Part shown: one piece after another, positions 31,147 through 45,073 of the stretch
How the letters are laid out: each line of letters starts with the position of its first letter
How positions within the stretch are numbered: the first letter of the stretch is position 1
Assembly: GCA_026984835.1 (NCBI GenBank)
Contig: JALSRI010000158.1
Coordinates: forward strand, 1-45,417
Source: Thiohalobacter sp.
GTDB lineage: Bacteria; Pseudomonadota; Gammaproteobacteria; DSM-19610
DNA length: 45,417 bases
Reading direction: 5' to 3'
The notes under the pieces: model-generated
The model's input: the letters and a program-made list of their open reading frames with translations, nothing else
What the model was told of the DNA's origin: nothing
Database searches by the model: none
Position numbers and translations under genes: made by a program

Positions 31147-32709
31147 TCAGGCGATGGTGTCGAAGGCCTTGAGGCTGTCGATCAGCGCCGCGCTGGGGGG
31201 GTTGCCGAGACCGTTGAACAGGCTGGTGAAATTGGCGATGTCGCCGTTCAGCGCCATGTAGTTCAGGATCACCGTCTCCACCAGCAGGTTGACGTTGTTG
31301 GCGGCCGGGCTGGAGGCCGTCTCCACCGAGCCGTCGCCGCGGAACCAGCCGATCTGCTGACGGATGGCCGGCGTGCGGCCGTTGGGGCTGTAGACCAGGA
31401 AGAAGGAGGCCGCCGTCGACGAGTTGTCGCCGGTCCAGACTCCCTTGCCGCGGCCGTCGGTGCTGTTGTCGACGGTACCGTTGCTGGCCAGCGAACCGTC
31501 GCTGAACACGTACAGCATCAGCGGCACGCCGCGGCGGGCGGCGTACTCCAGGCAGGCGCCCATGCAGCGGCCCGCGCGCAGGTCGCGGATCTCGCCGGTG
31601 CTGCGATCGCCGGTGTGGTAGTCGTAGCCGCCCATGGCGATGGTGCCGGCGCCGGCGTAGCCGTCGATGACCATTTTCATCACCGAGGCGGTCTTGCGGA
31701 ATTCGCGGTCGCCGTCGAACTCGGTCTGGCTGAAGATGCCGGCCGGCCCGACGATGTCGGTGTCCTGGGCCGGGTCGATGTTGACGCCGGCGAAGCGGTC
31801 GGCCAGGTCGGCGGCCTTGAGGTAGCCGCAGCGCACCAGGTCCTTGACCACGGCGTCGGCGGTCAGCTTGGTGCTGACGCGGTTGAGCTTCTTGTCGCTC
31901 AGGCGGGCGATCGACTCCATCACCGGCACCACGTCGTCGGGGCCGAGAATGCCCGTGAGGTTGCCGGTGTCGACCATGCCGGTGACGTCGCTGGGGCGAT
32001 CGACCTTGGTCGGTCGCACCTCGGGGTCCATCATCATGGCCGGGGCCATGGAGTTGCCGCCCGAATCCGAGTTGCGCGAACCGATCAGGGTCACCACGCT
32101 GCCGTCGCCGCCGGCCCGGGCGATGCCGTACATCGGGTTGTGCGGATTGTTGCCGGTGTCGTTGTCGGAGCGTGCCGGTATCACCGCGCCGTTGACGTTG
32201 GGCCCGCGGGCGGCGGCCTTTTCCAGCATGCCGCGCAGGAAGGCACTGTCGGAATGGAACGGCAGGCCGAAGGTGGTGTCGGTGAAATCGCCGTTGCTGG
32301 TGGGAGTGGGCGTGGTCTCGGTCAGCCCCGGGATCATGTCGCCCGGCAGGCCCAGCTTGCTGTAGCCGGCGGTGGTCAGCACGTCCAGCGGCGTGCTGCG
32401 CCCGACCAGGACATTGGAACCGGCGATGTTGGCGCCGCCGGCCAGGTCGAAGCAGATGAAGGGGATCTTGCCGCCGCCCGCGCCGCCCAGCGTACAGCCG
32501 ATGCTGCTGGCCAGCGCCTGCAGGTCGGAAGACAGGGCCGCCTGCGCCGCGCGCGGGTTGGCGAACAGGCTGAACAGGGAGCCACCGAGCACCACGCCGG
32601 TACCGGATATGAAGCCCTGCCGCAGGAAGTCCCGGCGGGTGACGGGGCGACCGTGACCCAGGTTCGTCAGCGGCGCATCAGGATGCAGAGCTTGGTTGCG
32701 TTTGGCCAT
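31147..32709 (-). CDS. Tat-exported DUF1501-like protein, unknown function
   Basis: A 520-residue protein with a twin-arginine signal (PVTRRDFLRQGFISGTGVVL, about residues 23-42), so it is exported folded. The rest resembles the alkaline-phosphatase-fold DUF1501 group: FICFDLAGGANIAGS near the start, MKMVIDGYAGAGTIAMGGYDYH and GRCMGACLEYAARRGVPLML later. Related proteins are sometimes labelled general secretion pathway proteins without support. Catalytic residues cannot be assigned. It is the last gene of a three-gene operon with two c-type heme proteins, 27 bases after the LamG gene, and is probably periplasmic or surface-located. Confidence 0.8.
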   Translation of the reverse strand: MAKRNQALHPDAPLTNLGHGRPVTRRDFLRQGFISGTGVVLGGSLFSLFANPRAAQAALSSDLQALASSIGCTLGGAGGGKIPFICFDLAGGANIAGSNVLVGRSTPLDVLTTAGYSKLGLPGDMIPGLTETTPTPTSNGDFTDTTFGLPFHSDSAFLRGMLEKAAARGPNVNGAVIPARSDNDTGNNPHNPMYGIARAGGDGSVVTLIGSRNSDSGGNSMAPAMMMDPEVRPTKVDRPSDVTGMVDTGNLTGILGPDDVVPVMESIARLSDKKLNRVSTKLTADAVVKDLVRCGYLKAADLADRFAGVNIDPAQDTDIVGPAGIFSQTEFDGDREFRKTASVMKMVIDGYAGAGTIAMGGYDYHTGDRSTGEIRDLRAGRCMGACLEYAARRGVPLMLYVFSDGSLASNGTVDNSTDGRGKGVWTGDNSSTAASFFLVYSPNGRTPAIRQQIGWFRGDGSVETASSPAANNVNLLVETVILNYMALNGDIANFTSLFNGLGNPPSAALIDSLKAFDTIA

Positions 32710-32736
32710 GGTTTTTTCCTCGATGATGTCCTTGAG

Positions 32737-35310
32737 CTATTGCAGCAGCATCGCTGCGCTGCCCAGCGTTGCGCCACACATCGCCTTGACGATGGCCTGG
32801 GTGCGGCCCGCCTGGCAGGCGGGATCGGAGGGGCCACTGCAGCCCCCCGCCAGCCGGTCGAACAGGTTGCCGGCGTTGACCAGTACGCCACCGGCGTCGT
32901 AGCCGGTGAGTTCGGCCTTGACCTCCGCCCGCGTCGGCGCATTGGTCAGCGCCGCGGACGAACCGGGTATGCCGACCATGCGGTTGTAGAGGGCGTCGAC
33001 GATCTGGTTCTTCTCGGCGGAGTCGCCGGCCGCCGTGTTGAAGGCGGTCACCACGTCCGAGCCGAAGGGGAAGGCGCCGAACAGGCTGCTGCGCAGCGCC
33101 GTATCGTCGACCAGCGCGGAACAGTACTCGATGGCCAGCTGGGCGATCGCCATCTGGTGTGCAGACAGGAAACCCTCGATGACCTCCACCGCCGGCAGTT
33201 GCTGCATGATGACGTCGTAGCTCGACTTCACCACCACCGGGTCGACACCGGTCAGGGCGGCCATGGAGGCATTGATCTCGTCGAAGGTGCGCAGCCCGAT
33301 GTCCGACACCGGCGGCAGCGGCGGCGGTGTCGGCAGCGGCGGCGGCGCCGGTTCGGTCACCACGTTGACGTTGCTGCCCAGCACTTCGAAGCTGAGGAAG
33401 AACTCGTCCGAGGACGGGCCGTTCTCCAGCGCGATGATGGTGCCGAGATTCGACAACACCTGGCCGGTCGAGGGCGTGTACTGGCTGGAATCCAGCGTCA
33501 CGTCGAGGTTGCGGTAGGCCTGTCCGACCACGGCCTCCCTGCCGTTGATGCCGATGCGCATGCCCTTGAGCGGAATGGCGCTCGGCACTGCATTGGGATC
33601 GAGGCTGATGAAGGTCGGCTTGTTGAACAGGTAGCTGTAGGTGTCGTACTGGCTGACCTCGAACATGATGAAGCTCTGCGGCACCGGGATCAGGTCGCTG
33701 ACACTGAACAGCAGGAAGAATTTCTCGCCCACGCCGACGTCGAAATTCTGCTGGATCTGGGCCTGGGTCAGCGCCCGGTTGTGGATGGCGACCATGCGGA
33801 TGGTGCCCATCCAGGGACGGTCGTTGGATACTTCGTTGCCGAGCACGAAGGCGAAGCTGTCGTCCCAGTCGGCCAGGCTGCCGCCGGCCACCGGGTCCAT
33901 GTCGCCCGTGAACACGCCGTTGACATAGATGCGGCGGCCGTTGACCGGGTCGTAGGTGACCACCACGTGCTGCAGGGTCGCCTGCAGGTCCTCGTCGGCG
34001 TCGGCGGTCGACAGCGCCGGCTCTCCGTTGGCGTCGGTGGTGCTGCTGCGGTGCAGGAAGTCATAGTTGTACTGGGTCTGGCCCAGGGTGAAGTTGCGCG
34101 CCTGGGTGCCGGCCGAGTAGCTGACGATGCGTGCCGGACCTTCCTGGGTCACGTTGGCGGGCGCCACCCAGGCCTCGATGGAATACTCGCCCGTCGAGGT
34201 GATCAGGTCGTGCAGCTTCTTGCTGGCCGTGGTCGAACCCTGGGCCTTGCCGTTGGCGCCGATCTGGATGCCCCAGCCGCCGACCCAGCTCACGTCACCG
34301 CTGAAGTTCAGGTGCAGCGCCGGCTCCACGCCGCTGGTGTCGAAGGCGGTGGTGCCGCTGCCGGTCTTGAACTCCCACAAGGCGATGACGTTGGCCTCGT
34401 AGCGGCTGCCGCCGCTGGCCACCACGCCGTCGGTGATGTTCAACGCCTTGCTGATGACCAGGCTGGGATCGACCGTGGTCGGCGTGATGGTGCCGGCGAA
34501 GGCGGCGATCTGCGCCTCCATGTCGTTCGAGTCACTGGCGCAGTCGGACCAGCAGTTGTGGAACTCGTTGCGCAGCCGCACCACCAGGCGCGAGTTGGCC
34601 GGGTTGTTGAGGTCCATCTTGGACTTGGCCGCCTCGTAGGCCGCATCGACTTCACTGCCGGCGAAGAACGGCGCCTGCGGCGTGGCCGAGGTGTCGGTGT
34701 GACAGCCGGCGCAGTTGGTGGTCAGCAGCGGCCACACGGTGGTGGCGAAAGCGGTGGAATCGGCCGGAAAATTGAGCGTGGCGCCCGGATCCTTGATGGG
34801 CGGCGGCGTCAGCTGGATCTGCCGCGAGGCACCGGCGGCGGTGTTGCCGGCCCAGGCCTCGATGTAGGCCGTGATCACGGCGGCGCAGGCCGAGGGCGCG
34901 GACAGCCAGCAATTGTGGCCGCCCGCCACCTTGGTGACCATGCGTGAATTGGCCGGCTGGTTCAGGTCGACGATGGTGTTGGCGGCGGCATAGGCCTGGT
35001 TGATGTCGTCCTGGCGCACGAACTCCGGCGCCTGGATGCCGGGCACGTGGCAGGCGCCGCAGCGGTTGTCGGCCTTGAGGTTCTCCCACACGTTGATGCG
35101 GAAGGCCTGCACGTCCGAGGTGGCGGGCGGCGGGCCGGAGTAACTGGACGGCGATACGCCGCCGGTGACCGGGTTCTCGGTGGTCTGGGCGCCGCCGCCG
35201 CAACCGGTCAGCATCACCACCAGCAGCAGGAACAACACGAAATGAACGGCGCCGCCCACCAGCATGCCGGTGTCGATCGAAAACAGCCTGTCGTTGTTTG
35301 AAGTCGTCAT
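32737..35310 (-). CDS. Large diheme lipoprotein with LamG-like domain
   Basis: An 857-residue lipoprotein (VVMLTGCGGG lipobox, Cys near residue 37). The N-terminal part has two tandem modules, each with a heme c site (CGACH at 84-88 and CAGCH at 200-204), then a similar ANSR-V segment and an HNCW motif, so it looks internally duplicated. A LamG/concanavalin-like beta-sandwich follows (about residues 300-540: LWEFKTGSG, YSIEAWVAP, HVVVTYDPVNGRRIYVNG). The distal part has a proline-rich linker (PAPPPLPTPPPLPP) and a helical C-terminal region. ATG 35310 follows GGATAGGG; an upstream ATG (35349) gives 13 more residues. It is probably an outer-membrane or surface redox protein; substrate unknown. 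Confidence 0.8.
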   Translation of the reverse strand: MTTSNNDRLFSIDTGMLVGGAVHFVLFLLLVVMLTGCGGGAQTTENPVTGGVSPSSYSGPPPATSDVQAFRINVWENLKADNRCGACHVPGIQAPEFVRQDDINQAYAAANTIVDLNQPANSRMVTKVAGGHNCWLSAPSACAAVITAYIEAWAGNTAAGASRQIQLTPPPIKDPGATLNFPADSTAFATTVWPLLTTNCAGCHTDTSATPQAPFFAGSEVDAAYEAAKSKMDLNNPANSRLVVRLRNEFHNCWSDCASDSNDMEAQIAAFAGTITPTTVDPSLVISKALNITDGVVASGGSRYEANVIALWEFKTGSGTTAFDTSGVEPALHLNFSGDVSWVGGWGIQIGANGKAQGSTTASKKLHDLITSTGEYSIEAWVAPANVTQEGPARIVSYSAGTQARNFTLGQTQYNYDFLHRSSTTDANGEPALSTADADEDLQATLQHVVVTYDPVNGRRIYVNGVFTGDMDPVAGGSLADWDDSFAFVLGNEVSNDRPWMGTIRMVAIHNRALTQAQIQQNFDVGVGEKFFLLFSVSDLIPVPQSFIMFEVSQYDTYSYLFNKPTFISLDPNAVPSAIPLKGMRIGINGREAVVGQAYRNLDVTLDSSQYTPSTGQVLSNLGTIIALENGPSSDEFFLSFEVLGSNVNVVTEPAPPPLPTPPPLPPVSDIGLRTFDEINASMAALTGVDPVVVKSSYDVIMQQLPAVEVIEGFLSAHQMAIAQLAIEYCSALVDDTALRSSLFGAFPFGSDVVTAFNTAAGDSAEKNQIVDALYNRMVGIPGSSAALTNAPTRAEVKAELTGYDAGGVLVNAGNLFDRLAGGCSGPSDPACQAGRTQAIVKAMCGATLGSAAMLLQ

Positions 35311-35351
35311 GGCCCTATCCCCGGATCCCGCCCTGATTCTGTTCATCATGA

Positions 35352-36611
35352 TCAGTCACCCATGCAGTAGACGGCTGCGTCGGCGAACACCTGCTTCATG
35401 CTGTAGTTGCTGGCGATGAAGGAGGAGACCATGCTGCTCACCTGCGCCTGGTCGGCGGCGTCGGACGGATCGCGCAGGCAGACCGTGCGAAACACCTTCT
35501 TCACCTGGCAGCCGGCGAATGCCTGGCTGCCGGCCAGTTCGGCTCCCAGCGACTTGGCGCCGGCGCCGCTGCCGGGCAGGCTGGCGCTCCAGCCCAGGTT
35601 GGCATTCGGACCCGCACGCCAGTAGTTGTCCCAGTTGTCGTTGGGCGTGACGTAGCCGTACTTGAAATTGTCCGCGTTGATCAGGTACTTGGGCTGCACC
35701 TGGCCGGGGGTGTAGACCAGCCGGCCCTGCGCCTCGTCGTAGTTGTAGTAGGCGAAGGCCTGCACCATCGGATCCATGCCGGCATGGCACCCCACGCAGG
35801 AGTTCATGAAGATGCGGCTGTCACCACCGGGACTGCGCGACACGTCCTGCCGGACCCGGTCCGGGGGACGCGAGTTGTCCTTGAGCGGTTCGAGGTCGGT
35901 ACACAGGTGATTGATCATGGTGAAGCGGAACATGGCCCGGTTGGTGCCGGCGACGAAGAAGGCTTCGGCCGCGGCGCGGGTGGTGAGCACCCCCGCCGTG
36001 GCGGTGGCGGGCAGTCCGGTCACCTGGGACTGGGGGCGCTGCACCAGCACCTGCTGGAGATCGGCATCCATGTCATCGAGCGCCTGGTAATGGTTGTTGT
36101 CGGTGTTGGAATAGGGGGGCAGGCCGGGCACCTGGGCGCTGTCGCCGATATAGATGATATCGCCCGACAGCACCTGGTCGAAGGGCACGTCGTCGCGGAT
36201 CATGCCGATGACAGTGGCCGTGTAGTCGTTGAGCGGCACGAACACGCTCTGGGCCTCGTTGGTCCAGGGCGCGGCGAAGTTCTTCAGGGTGACATTGTAG
36301 AAAGCGCGGTTGTTCATGGCGCGCCGGGCGGCGGCCTGCGGGTCGCCGGCCACGATGTCCTGCTCCATGAGGTCGAGTACCGTCTCGCTGGGCGGCACGC
36401 CGGCGATGCGATCGTGGATGCGCTTGGCCTGGCGCCGTTCCAGTGCGCCGGCATCGGCGCCCTGCGGCAACGCCATGGCCAGCAACGGGCCCAGCAGGGC
36501 GGCGGCCAGCAGTCGGCGCGCGGCCCGGGACCGGGCCTGCAACTTGAGCTTGTCTCTGTTCACGTCTGTCCCCCCGTCTCGGGATGTCTGACCGGTTTCC
36601 GGTTCCATCAT
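35352..36611 (-). CDS. Exported monoheme c-type protein, unknown function
   Basis: A 419-residue protein with a signal sequence (LLAAALLGPLLAMALPQGADA) and a heme c site CVGCH at residues 272-276 followed by AGMDPMVQAF. Additional cysteines lie near the C-terminus (FAGCQVKKVFRTVC, VYCMGD). It loosely resembles the DUF1585/DUF1588-type proteins that accompany DUF1501 proteins in other bacteria. ATG 36611 has AGGTGA upstream. A GTG at 36563 preceded by GGGGG would give a more usual signal peptide, so the start is open. It is the first gene of the leftward operon, behind a sigma-54 promoter. Confidence 0.75.
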   Translation of the reverse strand: MMEPETGQTSRDGGTDVNRDKLKLQARSRAARRLLAAALLGPLLAMALPQGADAGALERRQAKRIHDRIAGVPPSETVLDLMEQDIVAGDPQAAARRAMNNRAFYNVTLKNFAAPWTNEAQSVFVPLNDYTATVIGMIRDDVPFDQVLSGDIIYIGDSAQVPGLPPYSNTDNNHYQALDDMDADLQQVLVQRPQSQVTGLPATATAGVLTTRAAAEAFFVAGTNRAMFRFTMINHLCTDLEPLKDNSRPPDRVRQDVSRSPGGDSRIFMNSCVGCHAGMDPMVQAFAYYNYDEAQGRLVYTPGQVQPKYLINADNFKYGYVTPNDNWDNYWRAGPNANLGWSASLPGSGAGAKSLGAELAGSQAFAGCQVKKVFRTVCLRDPSDAADQAQVSSMVSSFIASNYSMKQVFADAAVYCMGD

Positions 36612-36656
36612 GGCGTGTCACCTGGCGCGTTCTTGTCGTCGACCAGCCGGACTTAA

Positions 36657-36671
36657 GCAAAAAGCACTCCA
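36657..36671 (-). promoter_or_regulatory. Sigma-54 (-24/-12) promoter of the leftward heme-protein operon
   Basis: On the minus strand TGGAGTGCTTTTTGCTT has GG (36670-36669) and GC (36658-36657) separated by exactly ten bases, matching TGGCACG-N4-TTGCW with a full TTGCT. The predicted start site is near 36645, about 35 bases before the gene. Confidence 0.72.
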
Positions 36672-36724
36672 GCCGAACCCTTGTTCATGGTTGTCGACCT
36701 TAGGGGTTGAGACCGGCGAATTCT

Positions 36725-36738
36725 GTGACCCGGTCCAC
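36725..36738. promoter_or_regulatory. 14-bp palindromic operator, GTGRACCGGGTCAC type
   Basis: GTGACCCGGTCCAC; its reverse complement GTGGACCGGGTCAC differs at one base from the 44404-44417 site. It lies about 80-95 bases upstream of the leftward sigma-54 start site, the usual distance for an activator (enhancer) site, and about 330 bases upstream of the rightward one. Protein unknown. Confidence 0.6.
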
Positions 36739-37039
36739 AAGTTAGCGACCCACCCGCGCGAGGGCTGAACGCGGTTGGCTCTTTACTCCGGATTTCATGG
36801 GCTTGCGGCAGACGCGCGGCAATGTTGAAGGCCATCCGGAAGAACTGTGATGCAGGTCTCGGATCGGCCGGCGGTCACCGGGCTAGAGTGCCGTAAACCG
36901 CCCCGGACCGGCGCCGGATGCTGTCGTGGAAAGGCGACGCTGTCCGGTATTCACGACAGAACGCCGCCGCCCCGGACCGCTGGCGGAAGCAGCGTGGCCG
37001 CGCCTGTTTTCACCAGGACGGGATTGTTCAGGGACTTTC

Positions 37040-37053
37040 GGTACAGGACTTGC
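37040..37053 (+). promoter_or_regulatory. Sigma-54 (-24/-12) promoter of the rightward operon
   Basis: CGGTACAGGACTTGCA has GG (37040-37041) and GC (37052-37053) ten bases apart with a TTGCA -12 element. The start site would be near 37065, 34 bases before the first gene. The remaining 36739-37039 shows no gene, only an open frame that this promoter cuts through. Confidence 0.65.
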
Positions 37054-37098
37054 ATGAGACCCGGAGCCGAACGCCCCCGCATTGATGACGGAAATAAA

Positions 37099-39762
37099 AT
37101 GATGAAACGAACGACGGGAACCAACCGAACGACCGTGGCCAAACGGCTGCTGGGTCTCGCCCTGTCGGCCGCCGCCATGCTGATACTGGGCGCCTGCGGG
37201 GGCGGCGCCGGCGCCGGGGGCAGCGCCACCACCCAGGGCGTCGACCCGCTGGTGCAGGACTACGGCATCGCCTACGTGCGCCGTCCGGTTCCCGCCATGG
37301 ACACGGCGGATGCGCGCGAAGCGACCACTTTCATCCCCGGCGGCGATCTCTACTACCGCGATCTCGCCTCCCCCAGCGCGGCCGAACGCAACATCACCTT
37401 CCCGATCACCGGGGGCATGGGCGATGTCAAGGACGTGGAGCCTTCCTTCGACGGCAGCAAGCTGGTGTTCGCGCTGCGCCTGCCCGACATCCAGGGCGCC
37501 AACCCCGAGGACCAGCCGACCTGGAACATCTGGGAATACGACATCCCCAACGACCGGCTGCGCCGCATCATCACCTCGGACATCACCGCGGAAGCCGGCC
37601 AGGACGTGGCGCCGCACTACCTGCCGGACGGCCGCATCATCTTTTCCTCCAGCCGCCAGCGCAAGTCCAAGGCGATCCTGCTCGACGAGGGCAAGCCGCA
37701 GTACGCCGCCCAGGACGAGGACCGCAACGAACCCGCGCTGGTGCTGCACGTCATGAACGCGGACGGCTCCAACATCACCCAGGTCTCCTTCAACCAGAGC
37801 CACGACCTGGACCCGACGGTGCTGCAGAGCGGTGAGGTCGTATTCAGCCGCTGGGACAACATGAATCCCAGCGACGCCATCAGCCTGTACAAGATGAACC
37901 CGGACGGCACCAACCTGCAACTGCTCTATGGCGCCAACAGCCACACCACCGGCACCAACGGTTCGACGGTGCAGTTCCTGCAGCCGCGCGAAATGCCGGA
38001 CGGCCGCATCATGGTGCTGCTCAAACCCTATACCGGCACCCGCCAGGGCGGCGACATCGTCACCATCGATGTGAACAATTACGTCGACAACACCCAGCCC
38101 ACGGCGGTCAACCAGGGCGCCCTCAGCGGCCCCGCCCAGGCTTCGGCCTCGGTCAACGTCATCAGCACCGAGGCGGCGCCTTCCCCCGGCGGCCGCTTCA
38201 TCTCGGTCTTTCCGCTGTGGGACGGCACCAACCGGGCGCTGATAAGCTGGAGCCAGTGCCGCCTGCTGGAGAACGGCAACATCGTGCCCTGCAGCGCCGA
38301 CCGGCTGGCCGACCCCAATGTGCAGGAGGCGCCGCCGCTGTACAGCCTGTTCCTGTACGACATGGACACCAACACCCAACTGCCGATTTTCACACCGCAG
38401 GAAGGCTTCATGTACACGGACGTGGTGGCGGCCCAACCCCGGCGCCTCCCCAACATCATTCCGGACAAGCAGCCGGGCGTCGAGCTCAGCCAGTCGCTGG
38501 CGGACGAGAACGCCGGCGTACTGGACATCCGCAGCGTGTATGATTTCGACGGCGTCTACAACGCCCTGGGCGGCGGCGCACCCGACATCGCCGCGCTGGC
38601 CGACCCGGCCCGGACCACCAGCGCCGACCAGCGGCCGGCGCGTTTCCTGCGCATCGTCAAGGCGGTCGCGATTCCCGACCGCAACACCAAGCAGCTCAAC
38701 GGCTCGGCCTTCGGCCGCAGCGCCGGCCAGTTGATGCGAGAGATCATCGGCTACACCCCCATCGAGCCGGACGGTTCGGTGCGGGTCAAGGTGCCCGCCA
38801 ACGTGCCGCTGGCCATCAGCCTGGTGGACCGCAACGGCCGCCGCATCGGCAGCCGCCACAACAACTGGCTGCAGGTGCGGCCCGGCGAGACCGTCACCTG
38901 CAACGGCTGCCACAGCCCGGCGGCCGGCACCTCGCACGGCCGCGCCGACGCCTTCCTGCCGCTGCACGCGGGCGCCCCGGCCAGTGGCTATGTCTACCCC
39001 AACACGGTCAGTTCCATTTTCGCCGACTTCGGCGAGACCATGGCCCAGGCCCGCACCCGCCTGGACGCCAGCGCCCTGACGCCGAGCGTGGATATCCTCT
39101 ACACCGACGTGTGGACCGATCCGGTCGCCGCCGGCCGCGCGGCCGATGCCCCGCTGAGCTATGCCTACGGCGACCTCGACCCGGCCATTCCAGCGCCGGT
39201 GTCCTCGCCCGCCTGCCTGACGACCTGGACCAGCACCTGCCGCGTCGTCATCGACTACGAGCGCAACATCCACCCGCTGTGGGCCCGCGACCGCGGCGCC
39301 AACACCTGCACCGGCTGCCATGCGCCGACCGACGCCGCGGGCAATCCGAAAGTGCCGGACGCGCAGCTCGACCTGACCGACGGCGCATCGGACCAGAATC
39401 CCGATCATTTCAAGGCCTACCGCGAACTGCTGTTCACCGACAACGCCCAGGAACTGAGCGGCGGCGTGCTGGTGGACACCCTGGTGCAGGACACCGACGC
39501 CAACGGCAATCCGCTGTTCCTGACCGACGCCAACGGCGACCCGGTACTGGACAGCAACGGCAACATGATTCCCGTCATGGTCAACGTCACCGTGGCGCCG
39601 GCCATGTCCGTCAACGGCGCCGCCGCCAGCCCGCGGTTCTTCTCGCTGTTCGACGCCGGCGGCACGCACGCCGGCCGCCTCGACCCGATCGAGCTCAAGT
39701 TGATCGCGGAATGGCTCGATATCGGTGGACAGTACTACAACAACCCCTTCGATGCGCCCTGA
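37099..39762 (+). CDS. Diheme lipoprotein with TolB-like (PD40) repeats, HzsA-related
   Basis: An 887-residue lipoprotein (ILGACGGG lipobox near residue 34). The first part carries TolB/WD40-like beta-propeller repeats: VEPSFDGSKLVFALRLPD, PHYLPDGRIIFSSS, VMNADGSNITQVSFN and YKMNPDGTNLQ. The C-terminal part has two heme c sites, CNGCH at 601-605 and CTGCH at 737-741, around a DUF-like beta domain. This matches the pattern of proteins annotated as related to hydrazine synthase subunit alpha, but nothing here suggests anammox. The frame is open to 36847, yet ATG 37099 is chosen because the sigma-54 promoter lies inside the extension and the lipobox fits this start. It is probably a periplasmic or surface electron-transfer protein. 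Confidence 0.82.
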   Translation: MMKRTTGTNRTTVAKRLLGLALSAAAMLILGACGGGAGAGGSATTQGVDPLVQDYGIAYVRRPVPAMDTADAREATTFIPGGDLYYRDLASPSAAERNITFPITGGMGDVKDVEPSFDGSKLVFALRLPDIQGANPEDQPTWNIWEYDIPNDRLRRIITSDITAEAGQDVAPHYLPDGRIIFSSSRQRKSKAILLDEGKPQYAAQDEDRNEPALVLHVMNADGSNITQVSFNQSHDLDPTVLQSGEVVFSRWDNMNPSDAISLYKMNPDGTNLQLLYGANSHTTGTNGSTVQFLQPREMPDGRIMVLLKPYTGTRQGGDIVTIDVNNYVDNTQPTAVNQGALSGPAQASASVNVISTEAAPSPGGRFISVFPLWDGTNRALISWSQCRLLENGNIVPCSADRLADPNVQEAPPLYSLFLYDMDTNTQLPIFTPQEGFMYTDVVAAQPRRLPNIIPDKQPGVELSQSLADENAGVLDIRSVYDFDGVYNALGGGAPDIAALADPARTTSADQRPARFLRIVKAVAIPDRNTKQLNGSAFGRSAGQLMREIIGYTPIEPDGSVRVKVPANVPLAISLVDRNGRRIGSRHNNWLQVRPGETVTCNGCHSPAAGTSHGRADAFLPLHAGAPASGYVYPNTVSSIFADFGETMAQARTRLDASALTPSVDILYTDVWTDPVAAGRAADAPLSYAYGDLDPAIPAPVSSPACLTTWTSTCRVVIDYERNIHPLWARDRGANTCTGCHAPTDAAGNPKVPDAQLDLTDGASDQNPDHFKAYRELLFTDNAQELSGGVLVDTLVQDTDANGNPLFLTDANGDPVLDSNGNMIPVMVNVTVAPAMSVNGAAASPRFFSLFDAGGTHAGRLDPIELKLIAEWLDIGGQYYNNPFDAP

Positions 39763-39829
39763 GCGGCGCGGCGAGGGAAAAGCAGGGCAGGATGCATCGA
39801 CCCACTAGCCGGCAAGGAAAGAAAAGGAC

Positions 39830-40603
39830 TTGGCACTGAAGCACTCATACTCGGGCGATACACCGGGCTGGCTGTTCGCCGCTCTCCTGCTGCTCGCACA
39901 ACTGTCTGCGCTGCCGGTGGAGGCGGGCGAAGCGCCCCTGAGCGTCCAGGTGGCCGACCCCTATATCGAACTGCATACCGGGCCCGGCCGCGGCTACCCG
40001 GTCTTCCACGTGGAAGAACGGGGCGCACGCATCGACGTCCTCAAGCGCAAGACCGACTGGTTCAAGGTCCGGACCGGGCGCGGCAAGGAGGGCTGGGTAC
40101 AGCGCTCGCAGATGGAGCGCACCTTGTCGCTCTCCGGCGAGCCGACCCGCTTCAAGGATGCGACCATCGCCGAATTCGCCCGTCACCGCTGGGAGCTGGG
40201 GGCGCTGGGCGGCGATTTCGAAGGCGCCAACGTCATTTCCCTGCTGGGCGGCTTCGCCCTGACGCCCCACCTGTACGTGGAGATGGAGCTGTCCAAGGTG
40301 CTGGCCGATTTCTCCGATTCCAATGTCGCCACCCTGGGGCTGGTGTCACTGCCGTTCCCGGGCTGGCGCTTCTCACCCTTCTTCACCGTCGGCACCGGCG
40401 TCGTCCAGACCGACCCCAAGGCCACGCTGGTGCAGGCGCGCGACCAGACCGACCAGACCGGCTATGTCGGCGCCGGTCTGCGCGTCTACCTGACGCGGCG
40501 CTTCGTGTTTCGCGCCCAGTACCGCAACTATGTCATCTTCCAGAGCAAGGACGACAACCAGGAGATCAACGAATGGAAAGCAGGATTCGCCGTATTTTTC
40601 TGA
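39830..40603 (+). CDS. SH3-domain plus outer-membrane beta-barrel protein
   Basis: A 257-residue exported protein with a signal segment (WLFAALLLLAQLSALPVEAG). A bacterial SH3 domain (YIELHTGPGRGYPVFHV, WFKVRTGRGKEGWV, about residues 45-95) comes next. The C-terminal part has alternating beta strands ending VFRAQYRNYVIFQ and a terminal Phe-Phe, typical of outer-membrane barrels. The start is TTG 39830 behind AAGGAAAGAAAAGG; no ATG is available in frame before the signal. SH3 domains of this kind often bind peptidoglycan. It overlaps the next gene by 31 bases. It resembles the barrel family seen near myxobacterial envelope clusters. Confidence 0.75.
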   Translation: MALKHSYSGDTPGWLFAALLLLAQLSALPVEAGEAPLSVQVADPYIELHTGPGRGYPVFHVEERGARIDVLKRKTDWFKVRTGRGKEGWVQRSQMERTLSLSGEPTRFKDATIAEFARHRWELGALGGDFEGANVISLLGGFALTPHLYVEMELSKVLADFSDSNVATLGLVSLPFPGWRFSPFFTVGTGVVQTDPKATLVQARDQTDQTGYVGAGLRVYLTRRFVFRAQYRNYVIFQSKDDNQEINEWKAGFAVFF

Positions 40604-41214
40604 GCCTGGTGCTCGGCGCCGTGGCGGCGACGGCGGCCCGGGCTGCCGAGCAGCCGGCCGGACAGGTCATCGAGCCCGAGATCGAGCGGCGCGAGATCAC
40701 CGAAGCCGCCATCGACACCGAAGATTTCGAGATCGGTGCCTACGCGGGCCTGCTGGCCACCGAGGATTTCGGTACCAACCCGGTCTATGGCGCGCGCTTC
40801 GGCTACCACGTCACCGAGGATGTGTTCGTCGAGGCCGCCTACGCACGCAGCAACACGGACGAGACCAGCTTCGAGCGCCTGAGCGGCAACATCCAGCTCA
40901 TCAGCGACGACGACCGCCTGCTGAGCTACTGGAACCTGTCGTTCGGTTTCAACCTGCTGCCGGGCGAAGGCTTCGTCGCCGACCGCTGGGCCTTCACCAC
41001 GGCGTTCTACCTGATCGGCGGCGTCGGCAGCACCAGCTTCGCCGGCGACGACCTGTTCACCTGGAACGTCGGCGCCGGCTACCGGCTGCTCGCCAACGAC
41101 TGGCTGTCGCTGCGCATCGAGGCCCGGGACCACGTCTTCGACCTGGACCTGCTGGGCGACAAGCGCACCTACCACAACCTGGAATACAGCCTCGGCCTGT
41201 CGGTCTTCTTCTGA
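40573..41214 (+). CDS. Outer-membrane beta-barrel protein
   Basis: A 213-residue protein with a signal peptide (cleavage near ARA-AEQ, residue 24) and a C-terminal set of about eight amphipathic strands ending YSLGLSVFF. FGTNPVYGARFGYHVTEDVFVEAAYARS resembles the OmpA/OMP_myx-type barrel proteins. It overlaps the SH3-barrel gene at its start and probably has the same fold, as the two could form a paired outer-membrane complex. Confidence 0.75.
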   Translation: MESRIRRIFLSLVLGAVAATAARAAEQPAGQVIEPEIERREITEAAIDTEDFEIGAYAGLLATEDFGTNPVYGARFGYHVTEDVFVEAAYARSNTDETSFERLSGNIQLISDDDRLLSYWNLSFGFNLLPGEGFVADRWAFTTAFYLIGGVGSTSFAGDDLFTWNVGAGYRLLANDWLSLRIEARDHVFDLDLLGDKRTYHNLEYSLGLSVFF

Positions 41215-41240: not shown

Positions 41241-41338
41241 GATTTTCCACCGCAAGCCCGGCGCCCGCCGCCGATACAGGGTAGACGAGCACGGCTCGGA
41301 CCGACCCGATGAACACGACCCCATGGAGTACAACTGAC

Positions 41339-41851
41339 ATGCACATCCCGACCAGCACCTTTCTGCGCCGCCTGGGCGCCGCCCTGGCCGCCTGCCTGCT
41401 GACGGTTTCCCTCGCCCGGGCCGAAGCGCCGCCGACCCCGGCGCCGGACTTCACCCTCAAGAGCCGCTCCGGCGAGAACCTGCGCCTGAGCGACTATCGG
41501 GGCGAGGTGGTGATGATCAACTTCTGGGCCTCCTGGTGCGGCCCCTGCCGCCAGGAGATGCCGCTGCTGGAGCAGCTCTACAGCGAGTACAATCCGCTCG
41601 GCTTCACCATTCTCGGCGTCAATGTCGAAGAGGATTCGGGCAAGGCGCTGGCCATGCTGAACGAGATCCCGGTCAGCTTCCCGGTGCTGTTCGACACCAG
41701 CAGCAAGGTGAGCAAGCTGTACAACGTGGTGGCCATGCCCAGCACCGTGCTGATCGACCGCGACGGCCGGGTCCGTTTCCTGCACCGCGGCTACAAGCCC
41801 GGCTATGAACAGACCTACCAGGACCAGGTCCGGGCCCTGATCCGGGAATAA
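41339..41851 (+). CDS. TlpA-family periplasmic thioredoxin
   Basis: A 170-residue exported protein (signal near residues 8-28, cleavage ARA/AEA). The thioredoxin fold has the redox motif WCGPC (Cys67, Cys70) in NFWASWCGPCRQEMP and the cis-proline loop VVAMPSTVLIDRDG. TlpA proteins reduce disulfides in the periplasm, for example for cytochrome c or CuA biogenesis. Here it lies beside heme proteins and a cysteine-ended lipoprotein, and either could be a substrate. ATG 41339 follows GGAG. Confidence 0.9.
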   Translation: MHIPTSTFLRRLGAALAACLLTVSLARAEAPPTPAPDFTLKSRSGENLRLSDYRGEVVMINFWASWCGPCRQEMPLLEQLYSEYNPLGFTILGVNVEEDSGKALAMLNEIPVSFPVLFDTSSKVSKLYNVVAMPSTVLIDRDGRVRFLHRGYKPGYEQTYQDQVRALIRE

Positions 41852-41853
41852 CC

Positions 41854-42075
41854 GTGAAACGACTCGCCAGCCTGCTGAGCCTTACCCTGCTGCTGGGCGC
41901 CTGCAGCAGCGTGGAACCCTGGGTGAAACCCTACGAGCGCACCCACCTGGCCGATCCCATCATGAGCTTCTCGCGCGACCCGGTCTCGTCGGCCTACGAC
42001 AGCCACATCTACCAGGTGCGCGAGGGCGCCCGAGGCGCCGAGGGCGGAGAGGGGGGCGGCTGTGGCTGCAACTAG
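41854..42075 (+). CDS. DUF4266 lipoprotein with C-terminal GGGCGCN
   Basis: A 73-residue lipoprotein: lipobox LLLGACSS (Cys17), then a mature part of 57 residues with YERTHLADPIMSF and YQVREGARGAEG, ending Gly-Gly-Gly-Cys-Gly-Cys-Asn (Cys70, Cys72). Such ends are typical of DUF4266 and could bind metal, form a disulfide with TlpA, or be modified. GTG/ATG choice is not an issue: it starts GTG 41854, two bases after the TlpA stop. The last bases overlap the DUF3570 gene by 14. The charged C-terminal region is glycine-rich and probably flexible. Confidence 0.82.
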   Translation: MKRLASLLSLTLLLGACSSVEPWVKPYERTHLADPIMSFSRDPVSSAYDSHIYQVREGARGAEGGEGGGCGCN

Positions 42076-43189
42076 ACGGCGGGCCGCCTGGCTGACGCTG
42101 CTGCTGGCGTCCCTGTCGGCGCGGGCCGCCGTCCTGCCGGAAGACCGCGCCGATGCCCTGTACCATTCCTACGACGGCGGCGGCGTCGAGGTCACGGGGC
42201 CCTCCATCCTGGTGCGCAAGGGCGACAACAGGAACTTCTCGGTGTCCGCCAACTATTACGTGGACAGCATCTCCAGCGCCTCCATCGACGTGGTCACCCA
42301 GGGCAGCCCCTACTCCGAACAGCGCGAGCAGAAATCGCTGGGCGTGGACTACCTGCACGGCGACACCATCATGTCCCTCAACTATACGCGCAGCGAGGAG
42401 AGCGACTACAAGGCCGATACCGCCAGCTTCAGCATCAGCCAGAGCATGTTCGGCGATCTCACCACCGTCACGCTGGGCTACGGCCGCGGCAAGGACGATG
42501 TGCTGCAGAACGGCAATCCCGACTTCAGCGAGCCCGTCGACCGCCAGCAGTACCGCGTCGGGCTGTCGCAGATCCTGACCAAGAACCTGATCCTGGGCCT
42601 CAACTTCGAGAATGTCACCGAGGAAGGCTTCCTCAGCAACCCCTACCGCTCGGACCGCTACCTGGACGGCGCCACCTTCGTGTATGAACCGGAGAACTAC
42701 CCGCGCACCCGCACCAGCAACGCTGTGGCGCTGAACATGAAGTACTACCTGCCCTACCGGGCCGCCCTGGGGTTGGGCTACCGCTACTACGCGGACGACT
42801 GGGACATCGAGTCGCACACCGCCCAGGTCGACTATACCCAGCCGTTCGGCAAGCGCTGGATCCTGGATGTCGTCGCCCGCTACTACACCCAGTCGGCGGC
42901 CGATTTCTACAGCGACCTGTTCCCGCGCCAGGACGCCCAGAACTTCCGCGCCCGCGACAAGGAGCTGAGCCGCTTCAGCGATGTGTCGCTCGGCGCCGGC
43001 GTCAGCTATGCCCTGCTCAGTCACGCCTGGGGCTATATCGATCGCGCCGAGATCAGTTTCAAGTACCGCCGCTTCTGGTTCAGCTATGACAACTTCAGCG
43101 ACCTGAGCCGGAACGGCCCGGTGGGTGACGAACCGGCCTATGCATTCACGGCCGACGTCATCCAGCTCTACCTGTCGGCCTGGTACTGA
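42062..43189 (+). CDS. DUF3570 outer-membrane beta-barrel protein
   Basis: A 375-residue exported protein (signal with LTLLLASLSARA). The body is a run of alternating strands with many aromatic residues, such as NFSVSANYYVDSIS and AALGLGYRYYADDWDI, and ends in VIQLYLSAWY, a terminal aromatic typical of barrels. DUF3570 with DUF4266, TlpA and ApbE is a recurring neighbourhood. The start is GTG 42062 inside the 3' end of the DUF4266 gene. Function unknown. Confidence 0.83.
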   Translation: MAATRRRAAWLTLLLASLSARAAVLPEDRADALYHSYDGGGVEVTGPSILVRKGDNRNFSVSANYYVDSISSASIDVVTQGSPYSEQREQKSLGVDYLHGDTIMSLNYTRSEESDYKADTASFSISQSMFGDLTTVTLGYGRGKDDVLQNGNPDFSEPVDRQQYRVGLSQILTKNLILGLNFENVTEEGFLSNPYRSDRYLDGATFVYEPENYPRTRTSNAVALNMKYYLPYRAALGLGYRYYADDWDIESHTAQVDYTQPFGKRWILDVVARYYTQSAADFYSDLFPRQDAQNFRARDKELSRFSDVSLGAGVSYALLSHAWGYIDRAEISFKYRRFWFSYDNFSDLSRNGPVGDEPAYAFTADVIQLYLSAWY

Positions 43190-43193
43190 GGCG

Positions 43194-44189
43194 GTGCGCG
43201 AGGTGACCACCCTGCCCGGCCGCGCGCTGCTGCTGATCTGCCTGTCGCTGCTCGCATGGCCGGCGGGCGCCGGCTGGCTGCGTGAACAGCAGGACATCAT
43301 GGGCACCCGCATCACGGTGGAGGTGTTCCACGCCGACGACGACGTGGCGCGGCGCGGTGTCGATGCCGTCATGGCGGAGATGCGCCGTCTCGACGCCGCC
43401 ATGAGCCCGTTCCGGGAAGACAGCGAACTGTCCCGCGTCAACCGCGAAGCCGCCGCCGGTCCGGTGCCCATCAGCCGCGAACTCTTCGACCTGCTGCAGC
43501 GGTCCCGGCAGGTCTCGGATCTCACCGACGGCGCCTTCGACATCACCTTCGCCAGCGCCGGCTTCCTGTACGACTACCGGCGCCACGTCCATCCGGACGC
43601 CCGGACGCTGAAGCAGGCGGCGGCGCGCATCGACTACCACAACCTGGCGCTGGACCCCGCCACCCACAGCGTGCGCTTCAGTCTGCCCGGCGTGAAGATC
43701 GACCTGGGCGGCATCGCCAAGGGCCACGCCGTGGACCGTTCCATCGCCCTGCTGCGTGCCATGGGCATTCACGATGCCCTGGTGACCGCCGGCGGCGACA
43801 GCCGCGTCATCGGCCGGCGCTGGGGGCGGCCCTGGCGCATCGGCGTGCGTGACCCGCGGCGGCCGGACGCGCTGGTGGCCGTAATCCCGCTGGAAGACGT
43901 GGCCGTGTCCACCTCGGGCGACTACGAACGCTTCTTCGAGGAAGACGGCGTGCGCTACCACCACATCATCGACCCGACCAGCGGCGATTCGGCCCGCGGG
44001 CTGCGCAGCGTCACCATCATCGGCCCGGACGCCACCACTACCGACGCGCTGTCCACCAGCGTGTTCGTGCTGGGCAGGGAACGCGGCCTGGCCCTGGTGG
44101 ACCGGCTGACGGGCATCGATGCCATCCTGGTCGATGGCCAGGGCCGGCTGCACTATTCCAGCGGCCTCGAACAGCTCCAGCCGCACTGA
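43194..44189 (+). CDS. apbE: ApbE-family FAD:protein FMN transferase
   Basis: A 331-residue exported enzyme that links FMN covalently to Thr/Ser of target proteins. The signal lies in LLICLSLLAWPAGAGW. ApbE motifs are MGTRITVEVF, KIDLGGIAKGHAVD and DALSTSVFVLG, where the Asp and Thr/Ser residues bind Mg2+ and FAD. Start is GTG 43194, or GTG 43203 nine bases later, five or fourteen bases from the DUF3570 stop; an earlier ATG lies inside DUF3570. The modified target is unknown, as no obvious DUF2271 or FMN_bind protein is in the window. It is the last gene of the rightward operon before a 359-base gap. Confidence 0.9.
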   Translation: MREVTTLPGRALLLICLSLLAWPAGAGWLREQQDIMGTRITVEVFHADDDVARRGVDAVMAEMRRLDAAMSPFREDSELSRVNREAAAGPVPISRELFDLLQRSRQVSDLTDGAFDITFASAGFLYDYRRHVHPDARTLKQAAARIDYHNLALDPATHSVRFSLPGVKIDLGGIAKGHAVDRSIALLRAMGIHDALVTAGGDSRVIGRRWGRPWRIGVRDPRRPDALVAVIPLEDVAVSTSGDYERFFEEDGVRYHHIIDPTSGDSARGLRSVTIIGPDATTTDALSTSVFVLGRERGLALVDRLTGIDAILVDGQGRLHYSSGLEQLQPH

Positions 44190-44417: not shown

Positions 44418-44551
44418 GGACGGAGGGTACAGGCAGGCGGCACACTGCCGAAACAACAGGAACAACCCGGAACGATTCGGCCGCCGGCCCGCCCGAAGGA
44501 TGCGCGCCAGCGGCCTGCCGTGTCCAAGTCGACAACGGCCAGGAGGCCATG

Positions 44552-45073
44552 ATGAAACCGTTTTTCAACTACTTGCGCATACTCCTGCTGCTGGTGCCGG
44601 CGCTGGTGCTGGCCGGGCAGGACAAGTCGTTCACCAGCCTGGACGACGACGTGCAGACGCTCAAGAAAAAGACCCTGGAGCTGAACCGCGACCTGTTCCT
44701 GCTGGAAGAAGAGCTGCTGTTCCCCTCCAACACCCAGGTGTCGGTATTCGTCTCCATGGATGTCGGCAAGTTCTTCACCCTGGACTCGGTGAAACTCAAG
44801 ATCGACGACAAGGAAGTGGCCGACTACCTGTATACCCGGCGCGAGGCCGAAGCCCTCGTCCGCGGCGGCGTGCAGCGACTGCACGTCGGCAATCTGCGCA
44901 CCGGGGAGCACGAGATCACCGCCATCTTCACCGGCAAGGGGCCGCACGGGCGTGACTACAAGCGCGGCGCCACGGCAAAGATCACCAAGGGCCTGGGACC
45001 CCGCTACGTCGAACTGCAGATCGTCGACCGCACCGGCAACCAGCAACCGGAATTCGAAGTCAGGGAGTGGTGA
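44552..45073 (+). CDS. Exported coiled-coil protein, unknown function
   Basis: A 173-residue periplasmic protein with a signal peptide (cleavage near VLA-GQ, residue 21). A short coiled-coil (DDDVQTLKKKTLELNRDLFLL, about residues 31-50) precedes a beta-rich domain (DSVKLKIDDKEVADYLY, EHEITAIFTGKGPHGR, PRYVELQIVDR). ATG 44552 is preferred to 44549 because AGGAGG (44541-44546) is five bases before it. The stop overlaps the next start (TGATG). Some relatives are mislabelled as AraC regulators; there is no DNA-binding motif here. Confidence 0.7.
   Translation: MKPFFNYLRILLLLVPALVLAGQDKSFTSLDDDVQTLKKKTLELNRDLFLLEEELLFPSNTQVSVFVSMDVGKFFTLDSVKLKIDDKEVADYLYTRREAEALVRGGVQRLHVGNLRTGEHEITAIFTGKGPHGRDYKRGATAKITKGLGPRYVELQIVDRTGNQQPEFEVREW

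Follow-up and report, generated by a model that had tools for sequence, protein, structure and literature searches.

A DUF4266 lipoprotein with a nearly invariant Cys-Gly-Cys tail as a candidate dithiol partner of the DUF3570 outer-membrane barrel

Analysis of a stretch of 45,417 nucleotides from Thiohalobacter sp., the whole of which we refer to as the window, identifies the DUF3570 outer-membrane barrel, and not the adjoining TlpA-like thioredoxin, as the constant partner of the small lipoprotein family DUF4266. Based on this partnership and the conservation of a paired-cysteine tail, we lean towards the proposal that DUF4266 is a dedicated dithiol partner of the barrel, exchanging electrons with a barrel-borne FMN by means of a disordered arm that ends in Cys-Gly-Cys. 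The core pairing was published in 2021, and the DUF4266 protein of the window is a member of that described system; the present additions are the exact co-occurrence of DUF4266 and DUF3570, the type A supercluster and a relaxed flavinylation motif, which together make a role for DUF4266 testable. A domain of unknown function thereby acquires a concrete hypothesis, namely that it is the obligate thiol partner of a barrel with a flavinylated family member.

Meheust et al. (eLife 2021, PMC8238504) described gene clusters that combine ApbE, DUF3570, a thioredoxin-like protein and DUF4266, some with DsbD and others lacking it; that paper reports 316 clusters without DsbD, flavinylation of the Chlorobium luteolum DUF3570 protein by ApbE at two [S/T]GA[S/T] sites, and a conserved C-terminal CXC in DUF4266 for which redox cycling was suggested. 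It was the only paper naming DUF4266 or DUF3570 that our literature search recovered. The sequence-only reading that preceded this work held that DUF4266 had no established role; this is correct as far as demonstrated roles go, but redox cycling of the CXC had already been proposed in that paper.

The DUF4266 lipoprotein and its C-terminal tail

The open reading frame at 41854-42075 on the forward strand starts with GTG and encodes a protein of 73 residues (MKRLASLLSLTLLLGACSSVEPWVKPYERTHLADPIMSFSRDPVSSAYDSHIYQVREGARGAEGGEGGGCGCN) that matches the DUF4266 model PF14086 at 84.8 bits (cut-off 27; E 8e-24) over profile positions 1-50 of 50; as the match extends across the entire model, this is not a chance reading frame. 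Its lipobox, LGAC, places the lipidated residue at Cys17 (41902-41904), with which the 57-residue mature chain begins, and with Ser at the +2 position the usual Lol rule would anchor the protein at the outer membrane. The chain terminates in Cys-Gly-Cys-Asn (TGT GGC TGC AAC, 42061-42072, forward strand), directly followed by the stop codon. The earlier description of a DUF4266 lipoprotein ending in GGGCGCN is thus borne out, as are the neighbors it had named, each recovered by profile matches on the same strand: upstream a TlpA/ResA-like periplasmic thioredoxin with a WCGPC motif (41309-41851; PF00578 and PF08534, AhpC-TSA/Redoxin/thioredoxin), and downstream the DUF3570 barrel (42062-43189; PF12094, E 4e-40), the gene for which overlaps the 3' end of DUF4266 by 14 nt, and then the FAD:protein FMN transferase ApbE (43194-44189, presumed start; PF02424, 283 bits, E 2e-84). 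An AlphaFold2 model of mature DUF4266 averages a pLDDT of 59.8 and falls below 50 over the final eight residues, which suggests that the protein is probably mostly disordered, with a flexible tail as its least ordered part.

Searches with PF14086 covered 398 genomes of the phylum and 39 close relatives, and recovered DUF4266 in 30 of the former (29 above the cut-off) and 19 of the latter. Of the 48 family-model matches with tabulated ends, 47 terminate in CGCN and a single one (L048) in WGCK, and a further match outside these 48 (L029) ends in CGCY. The WGCK member still scores 67.8 bits with the family model, indicating that loss of a cysteine does not conceal members from the profile search. 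An alignment of 54 sequences (A3) shows the lipobox Cys, M21, E41, G45, G52, G53, G55 and C56 to be invariant and C54 and N57 to be present in 53 of 54, with H35 and a few other positions also nearly invariant; in nearly all members the second Cys sits exactly one residue before the chain end. The tail that had been called invariant-looking from a single sequence therefore deserves that description, since the alignment of C-termini that had been suggested as a check shows the terminal cysteines to be conserved almost without exception instead of varying freely. Additional loci came from a contig scan with the peptide pattern [GAE]GGGCGCN; as this pattern itself demands the tail, those loci are unusable for judging its conservation, for which the HMM-found set was used.

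Two candidates were set aside in the course of these searches: a match in G018 (22.9 bits, below the cut-off), which arose by chance in an alternative frame of a longer open reading frame, and selenocysteine in place of a tail cysteine, there being no in-frame stop in any family-model match from the 398 genomes and 39 relatives. The WGCK exception (L048/L090, G410) lies in an otherwise intact type A cluster (see below) and represents either a real loss or a sequence error, while the CGCY exception (L029/L075, G102) lies beside a DUF3570 protein of 912 residues. The DUF4266 proteins of L072 (G252) and L025 (G098) have no recognized lipobox and a longer N-terminal region, that of L072 having 167 residues and an apparently ordinary signal peptide; the two may possibly constitute a soluble secreted form.

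The sequence-only reading had taken so small a protein for a possible carrier or modified peptide, and its paired thiols beside TlpA as a sign of metal binding, disulfide exchange or chemical modification. With conserved cysteines in a small, predicted-disordered lipoprotein beside a thioredoxin, paired-thiol redox activity is the most economical reading, and this part of the suggestion is supported. The idea of a modified peptide is not: the small size and the ApbE gene nearby would suit a DUF4266 protein that is itself flavinylated or subject to ribosomal-peptide-like processing, but the family has no invariant Ser/Thr (best column 48%), the window protein has no DxxS/TGAS/T motif, which ApbE requires, and [S/T]GA[S/T] or GA[S/T] occurs in only 6 of the 54 aligned members. 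Furthermore, the adjacent DUF3570 belongs to the family with a proven ApbE substrate (that of Chlorobium), and the N-terminus of DUF4266 is an ordinary lipoprotein signal. We accordingly regard modification of DUF4266 itself as very improbable.

Cluster types and the constant partner of DUF4266

DUF4266 is encoded in two types of cluster. Type B corresponds to the published one, with thioredoxin, DUF4266, DUF3570 and ApbE, whereas type A, to which the window belongs, has the order hydrazine-synthase-alpha-like (HZS-alpha-like) diheme lipoprotein, SH3-barrel protein, TIGR04565 barrel, TlpA, DUF4266, DUF3570, sometimes ApbE, and a 174-residue protein. Type A was encountered at about 95 loci, mostly gammaproteobacterial, and is over-represented because the contig scan was seeded with an alignment headed by a type A sequence. 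The window shares with the published cluster (PMC8238504) the same four families side by side and the DUF4266 protein with a C-terminal CXC adjoining DUF3570. It differs in having no DsbD in the cluster (the one DsbD_TM match of the genome is on another contig), a thioredoxin of the AhpC-TSA/Redoxin type and a DUF3570 without [S/T]GA[S/T], and in adding the HZS-alpha-like lipoprotein, two further barrels and, divergently transcribed, a heme operon; the text of that paper mentions none of these additions.

Above their respective cut-offs, DUF3570 and DUF4266 are present in exactly the same 29 of the 398 genomes, and DUF3570 in no other (log10 p about -44 if the genomes are taken as independent); G246, G267 and G340 even contain two DUF4266 and two DUF3570 genes each. 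All 29 DUF4266 genomes encode ApbE, compared with 261 of the 369 other genomes (p 7e-5), and at least two ApbE genes are found in 25 of these 29 as against 50 of the 369 (p 2e-16); none of these p-values takes shared ancestry into account. The ApbE of the window is the second of two in its genome. By comparison, a TlpA gene was recognized at 98 of the 115 loci whose DUF3570 was aligned, the other 17 having no detected thioredoxin, and we reject it as the defining partner on this count. The emphasis that the sequence-only reading placed on TlpA thus holds for the window, where it adjoins DUF4266, but does not extend to the family as a constant association. The CxxC cysteines of TlpA are themselves 100% conserved in 102 homologues. 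One orphan DUF4266 gene with an intact CGCN (L089:6205-6501, G422, a relative outside the 398-genome sample) has neither DUF3570 nor a thioredoxin nor ApbE in the surrounding 6 kb or so; the contig has Cas1/Cas2-like genes and repeat-like stretches nearby.

The obligate co-occurrence, together with the small size and predicted disorder of DUF4266, could also be read as the mark of an assembly or plug lipoprotein for DUF3570, comparable to LptE for LptD, with the thiols serving in folding or in the maturation of the heme proteins, and the HZS-like partner does have conserved disulfide-like Cys pairs alongside its heme CXXCH motifs. However, DUF3570 has no conserved Cys to fold, DUF4266 is just as conserved in clusters without the HZS-like protein, and an invariant CGC would be unnecessary in a plug; we hold this to be unlikely, placing it after a metal-binding role for the tail. 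The latter is the main rival, albeit still an improbable one. The CGC with its two amides would then form a planar N2S2 site for Ni(II), Cu(II) or Co, or else bind Cu(I) or iron, and DUF4266 would serve the barrel by carrying or sensing metal. There is a precedent in acetyl-CoA synthase, where a CGC holds the distal nickel as N2S2 (PMC8910529); mature DUF4266 further conserves Met21 (54/54) and His35 (52/54), and PMC8238504 records the VIT1 iron transporter in 25 DUF3570 clusters. Against this, the strict partner of DUF4266 belongs to a family in which flavinylation has been proven for one member, the enzyme in genomic excess is ApbE, and no metal transporter was recognized in the window cluster.

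DUF3570 and the proposed dithiol-flavin exchange

ApbE attaches FMN to the Ser/Thr of DxxS/TGAS/T motifs (PMC12052999). The DUF3570 protein of the window (FLAVINYLATED), the presumed FMN carrier, contains no [S/T]GA[S/T]; the same alignment columns are occupied by DSISSAS (site 1, 42263-42283, forward strand), a drifted ApbE motif with the presumed acceptor Ser at 42281-42283, and by TQGS (site 2, 42296-42307, forward strand), which supplies a second possible acceptor Ser at 42305-42307. For want of the canonical motif, the window cluster is to be regarded as a variant and not as a canonical flavinylation cluster. Across the type A DUF3570 proteins the Asp, Ala and final Ser of site 1 are each present in 92 of 92, while the Gly position is Ser in 64, Gly in 23, Asn in 3 and Ala in 2, and in an alignment of 60 DUF3570 proteins (A2) D44, A49, S50 and S58 of the mature numbering are at least 90% conserved, Ser58 being nearly invariant. 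Replacement of this Gly by Ala in a known ApbE substrate lowered flavinylation but did not abolish it (reviewed in PMC12052999).

Of the 115 loci whose DUF3570 was aligned, 40 have ApbE inside the examined stretch, as do 20 of the 92 type A loci, most of which have none within about 6 kb; adjacency alone is hence unusable as proof of type A flavinylation, and genome-wide counts were used in its stead. In four genomes (G267, G015, G007 and G340) an ApbE gene precedes DUF4266 by 11-17 kb in the same orientation. In the genome G366 the single ApbE is directly upstream of the type A cluster, the DUF3570 of which has DAVSNAS, and neither an FMN_bind nor a DUF2271 protein was found; with one ApbE and neither of these, DUF3570 is the sole candidate target among the known families. 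For the window protein this argument by elimination offers a strong hint, not proof. We presume that the window DUF3570 is flavinylated, even though its motif Gly is replaced and ApbE is not within about 6 kb at most type A loci, and the drift to DxxS[S/N/G]AS suggests a broader target motif for ApbE than the published DxxS/TGAS/T. The motif Gly is lost at 19 of the 20 type A loci with an adjacent ApbE as against 50 of the 72 without (p 0.02), a suggestive link that is confounded by ancestry.

The AlphaFold2 model of DUF3570 is a 16-strand barrel (pLDDT 94.8), and both Ser50 and Ser58 fall in its strand 3-4 loop, one of the long loops. The N- and C-termini of outer-membrane barrels are usually periplasmic; this topology, combined with the loop lengths, would put the flavin loop on the cell-surface side. 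Of the 24 positions that are at least 90% conserved, the model places 20 in the odd-numbered (long) loops or in the third of the strands next to them. Fold searches recovered only generic outer-membrane barrels, with BamA, PelB and PgaA as the best matches, CymA as another, and MtrB (6r2q_B) among the general ones; the absence of MtrB from the VIA-align matches listed for DUF3570 excludes nothing. No conserved Cys was found in homologue alignments of DUF3570 or of the other cluster barrels.

Ordinary flavin-disulfide enzymes carry their own flavin-proximal dithiol; as DUF3570 has no conserved cysteine, we propose that DUF4266 supplies this dithiol in trans, either acting directly or as the missing disulfide. 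Specifically, DUF4266 would be held by its lipid anchor at the outer membrane, from which a disordered arm of about 55 residues would extend to the terminal Gly-Gly-Gly-Cys-Gly-Cys-Asn, with the CGC pair alternating between the dithiol and disulfide states. A thioredoxin of the periplasm, TlpA at loci that have it and another elsewhere, would swap electrons with DUF4266, which would in turn donate electrons to, or accept them from, the FMN put on DUF3570 by ApbE. The reaction between CGC and flavin, the direction of electron flow and the reach of the arm to the flavin loop are all conjectural parts of this scheme. At type A loci the diheme HZS-alpha-like lipoprotein is likely to be the next electron partner. 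Several points count against the arm model: given the usual barrel topology, a periplasmic arm would have to cross the barrel lumen, or else the lipoprotein would have to be surface-exposed; direct dithiol-FMN chemistry would be unusual in a flavoprotein without a flavin-proximal disulfide; and one must reckon with both the loci lacking an adjacent thioredoxin (17/115) and the L089 orphan without a nearby DUF3570. If the proposal is true, electrons from periplasmic thiols would reach an outer-membrane flavin without cytochromes, providing a route of extracellular electron transfer distinct from MtrCAB.

A functional parallel is that of Mia40 and Erv1, in which the dithiol of a CXC-type motif (CPC) gives electrons to an FAD-containing flavoprotein able to reduce cytochrome c (PMC4019985); there is, however, no homology, and Erv1 brings shuttle and active-site disulfides of its own, whereas DUF3570 has no conserved Cys. 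MtrCAB resembles the proposed system in combining an outer-membrane barrel that carries a redox cofactor (presumed in the case of DUF3570) with a heme lipoprotein partner, but has a decaheme chain in the barrel where flavin and thiol would serve here, and the fold match between DUF3570 and MtrB is generic.

The heme-rich surroundings of the type A cluster

Upstream of TlpA on the forward strand the window encodes the HZS-alpha-like lipoprotein (37099-39762, the start being a predicted one within a frame open from 36847), with two CXXCH motifs (38899-38913 and 39307-39321), then a protein with an SH3 domain and a barrel (39830-40603; PF08239 above cut-off, with a weaker TIGR04565 match) and a TIGR04565 OMP_myx_plus outer-membrane beta-barrel (40573-41214; NCBIfam 159.7 bits, cut-off 60), in an order kept in nearly all type A loci. 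The likeness of the first of these to hydrazine synthase alpha resides in the middle domain, in the region of its first heme motif (PF18582, 63 bits; 5c2v_A, E 7.6e-5). We reject its identification as a hydrazine synthase, as the NCBIfam score is 44 bits against a cut-off of 800 and there is no sign of hydrazine chemistry. Beta or gamma genes of that enzyme were not recognized among the annotated neighbors. Its heme cysteines are 99-100% conserved in 87 homologues. Further conserved Cys pairs occur at 471/482 (100%) and 790/798 (94%), numbered from 36847, which might possibly form structural disulfides and make the protein a client of TlpA.

On the reverse strand a divergent operon (31147-36611) adjoins the type A cluster in the window and in the two relatives examined, in which ApbE follows it. 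It encodes a one-heme protein of 419 residues with CVGCH (35352-36611; its homologue L180:6152 is weakly DUF1585-like), an 870-residue LamG-domain lipoprotein with a lipobox, CGACH and CAGCH (32737-35349; PF13385, 81 bits), and a 520-residue protein with the twin-arginine Tat signal VTRRDFLRQG (31147-32709), which has no family match and is kept in the same order in L180 and L182. The region 31147-41214 thus forms a heme-rich supercluster, kept with DUF4266/DUF3570 at many gammaproteobacterial loci. Our literature search found no paper on such an HZS-like gammaproteobacterial cluster, and hydrazine, gliding, TolQ, ExbD and SH3 go unmentioned in the text of PMC8238504.

Downstream, the window encodes an exported protein of 174 residues (44549-45073, forward strand), detected at 46 of the 92 type A loci, which in relatives opens a run of genes resembling the Agl-Glt core complex, a gammaproteobacterial system of unknown function (Luciano et al. 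2011, PMC3169522). In relatives the run shares with that complex TolQ/ExbD-type genes, TPR proteins and the AgmX/PglI C-terminal domain, and the 174-residue linker gene leads into it; the window stops before these genes. TPR proteins and TolQ/ExbD-type genes extend the type A run in G399 and G267, and G399 adds a protein with the AgmX/PglI C-terminal domain; past the point corresponding to the end of the window, L171 has a MotA_ExbB match of 105 bits, two ExbD and an NF033768 match (74 bits against 40), and L173 the TolQ/ExbD part. Through these genes the type A variant would tie flavin, thiol and heme components to a trans-envelope machine, the gammaproteobacterial function of which has been open since 2011. 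It is tempting to imagine a split flavin-disulfide oxidoreductase spanning the outer membrane, formed by a surface flavin on DUF3570 (at the relaxed DxxS[S/N]AS) and the DUF4266 dithiol arm, which in gammaproteobacteria would feed the HZS-alpha-like diheme surface lipoprotein and be built into an Agl-Glt-type proton-driven envelope machine; as a complete picture this is speculative, and we judge it unlikely.

The extended runs at L171:9030-17736 and L173:8595-18952 comprise TPR proteins, TolQ/ExbB, two ExbD and a TonB-like or AgmX/PglI-type protein. At the TlpA-less type A loci L135:7474-9773 and L152:4792-7079, for example in Woeseiaceae, genes for a LemA-like protein and a membrane protein with a Gly-rich tail are found directly 3' of DUF3570.
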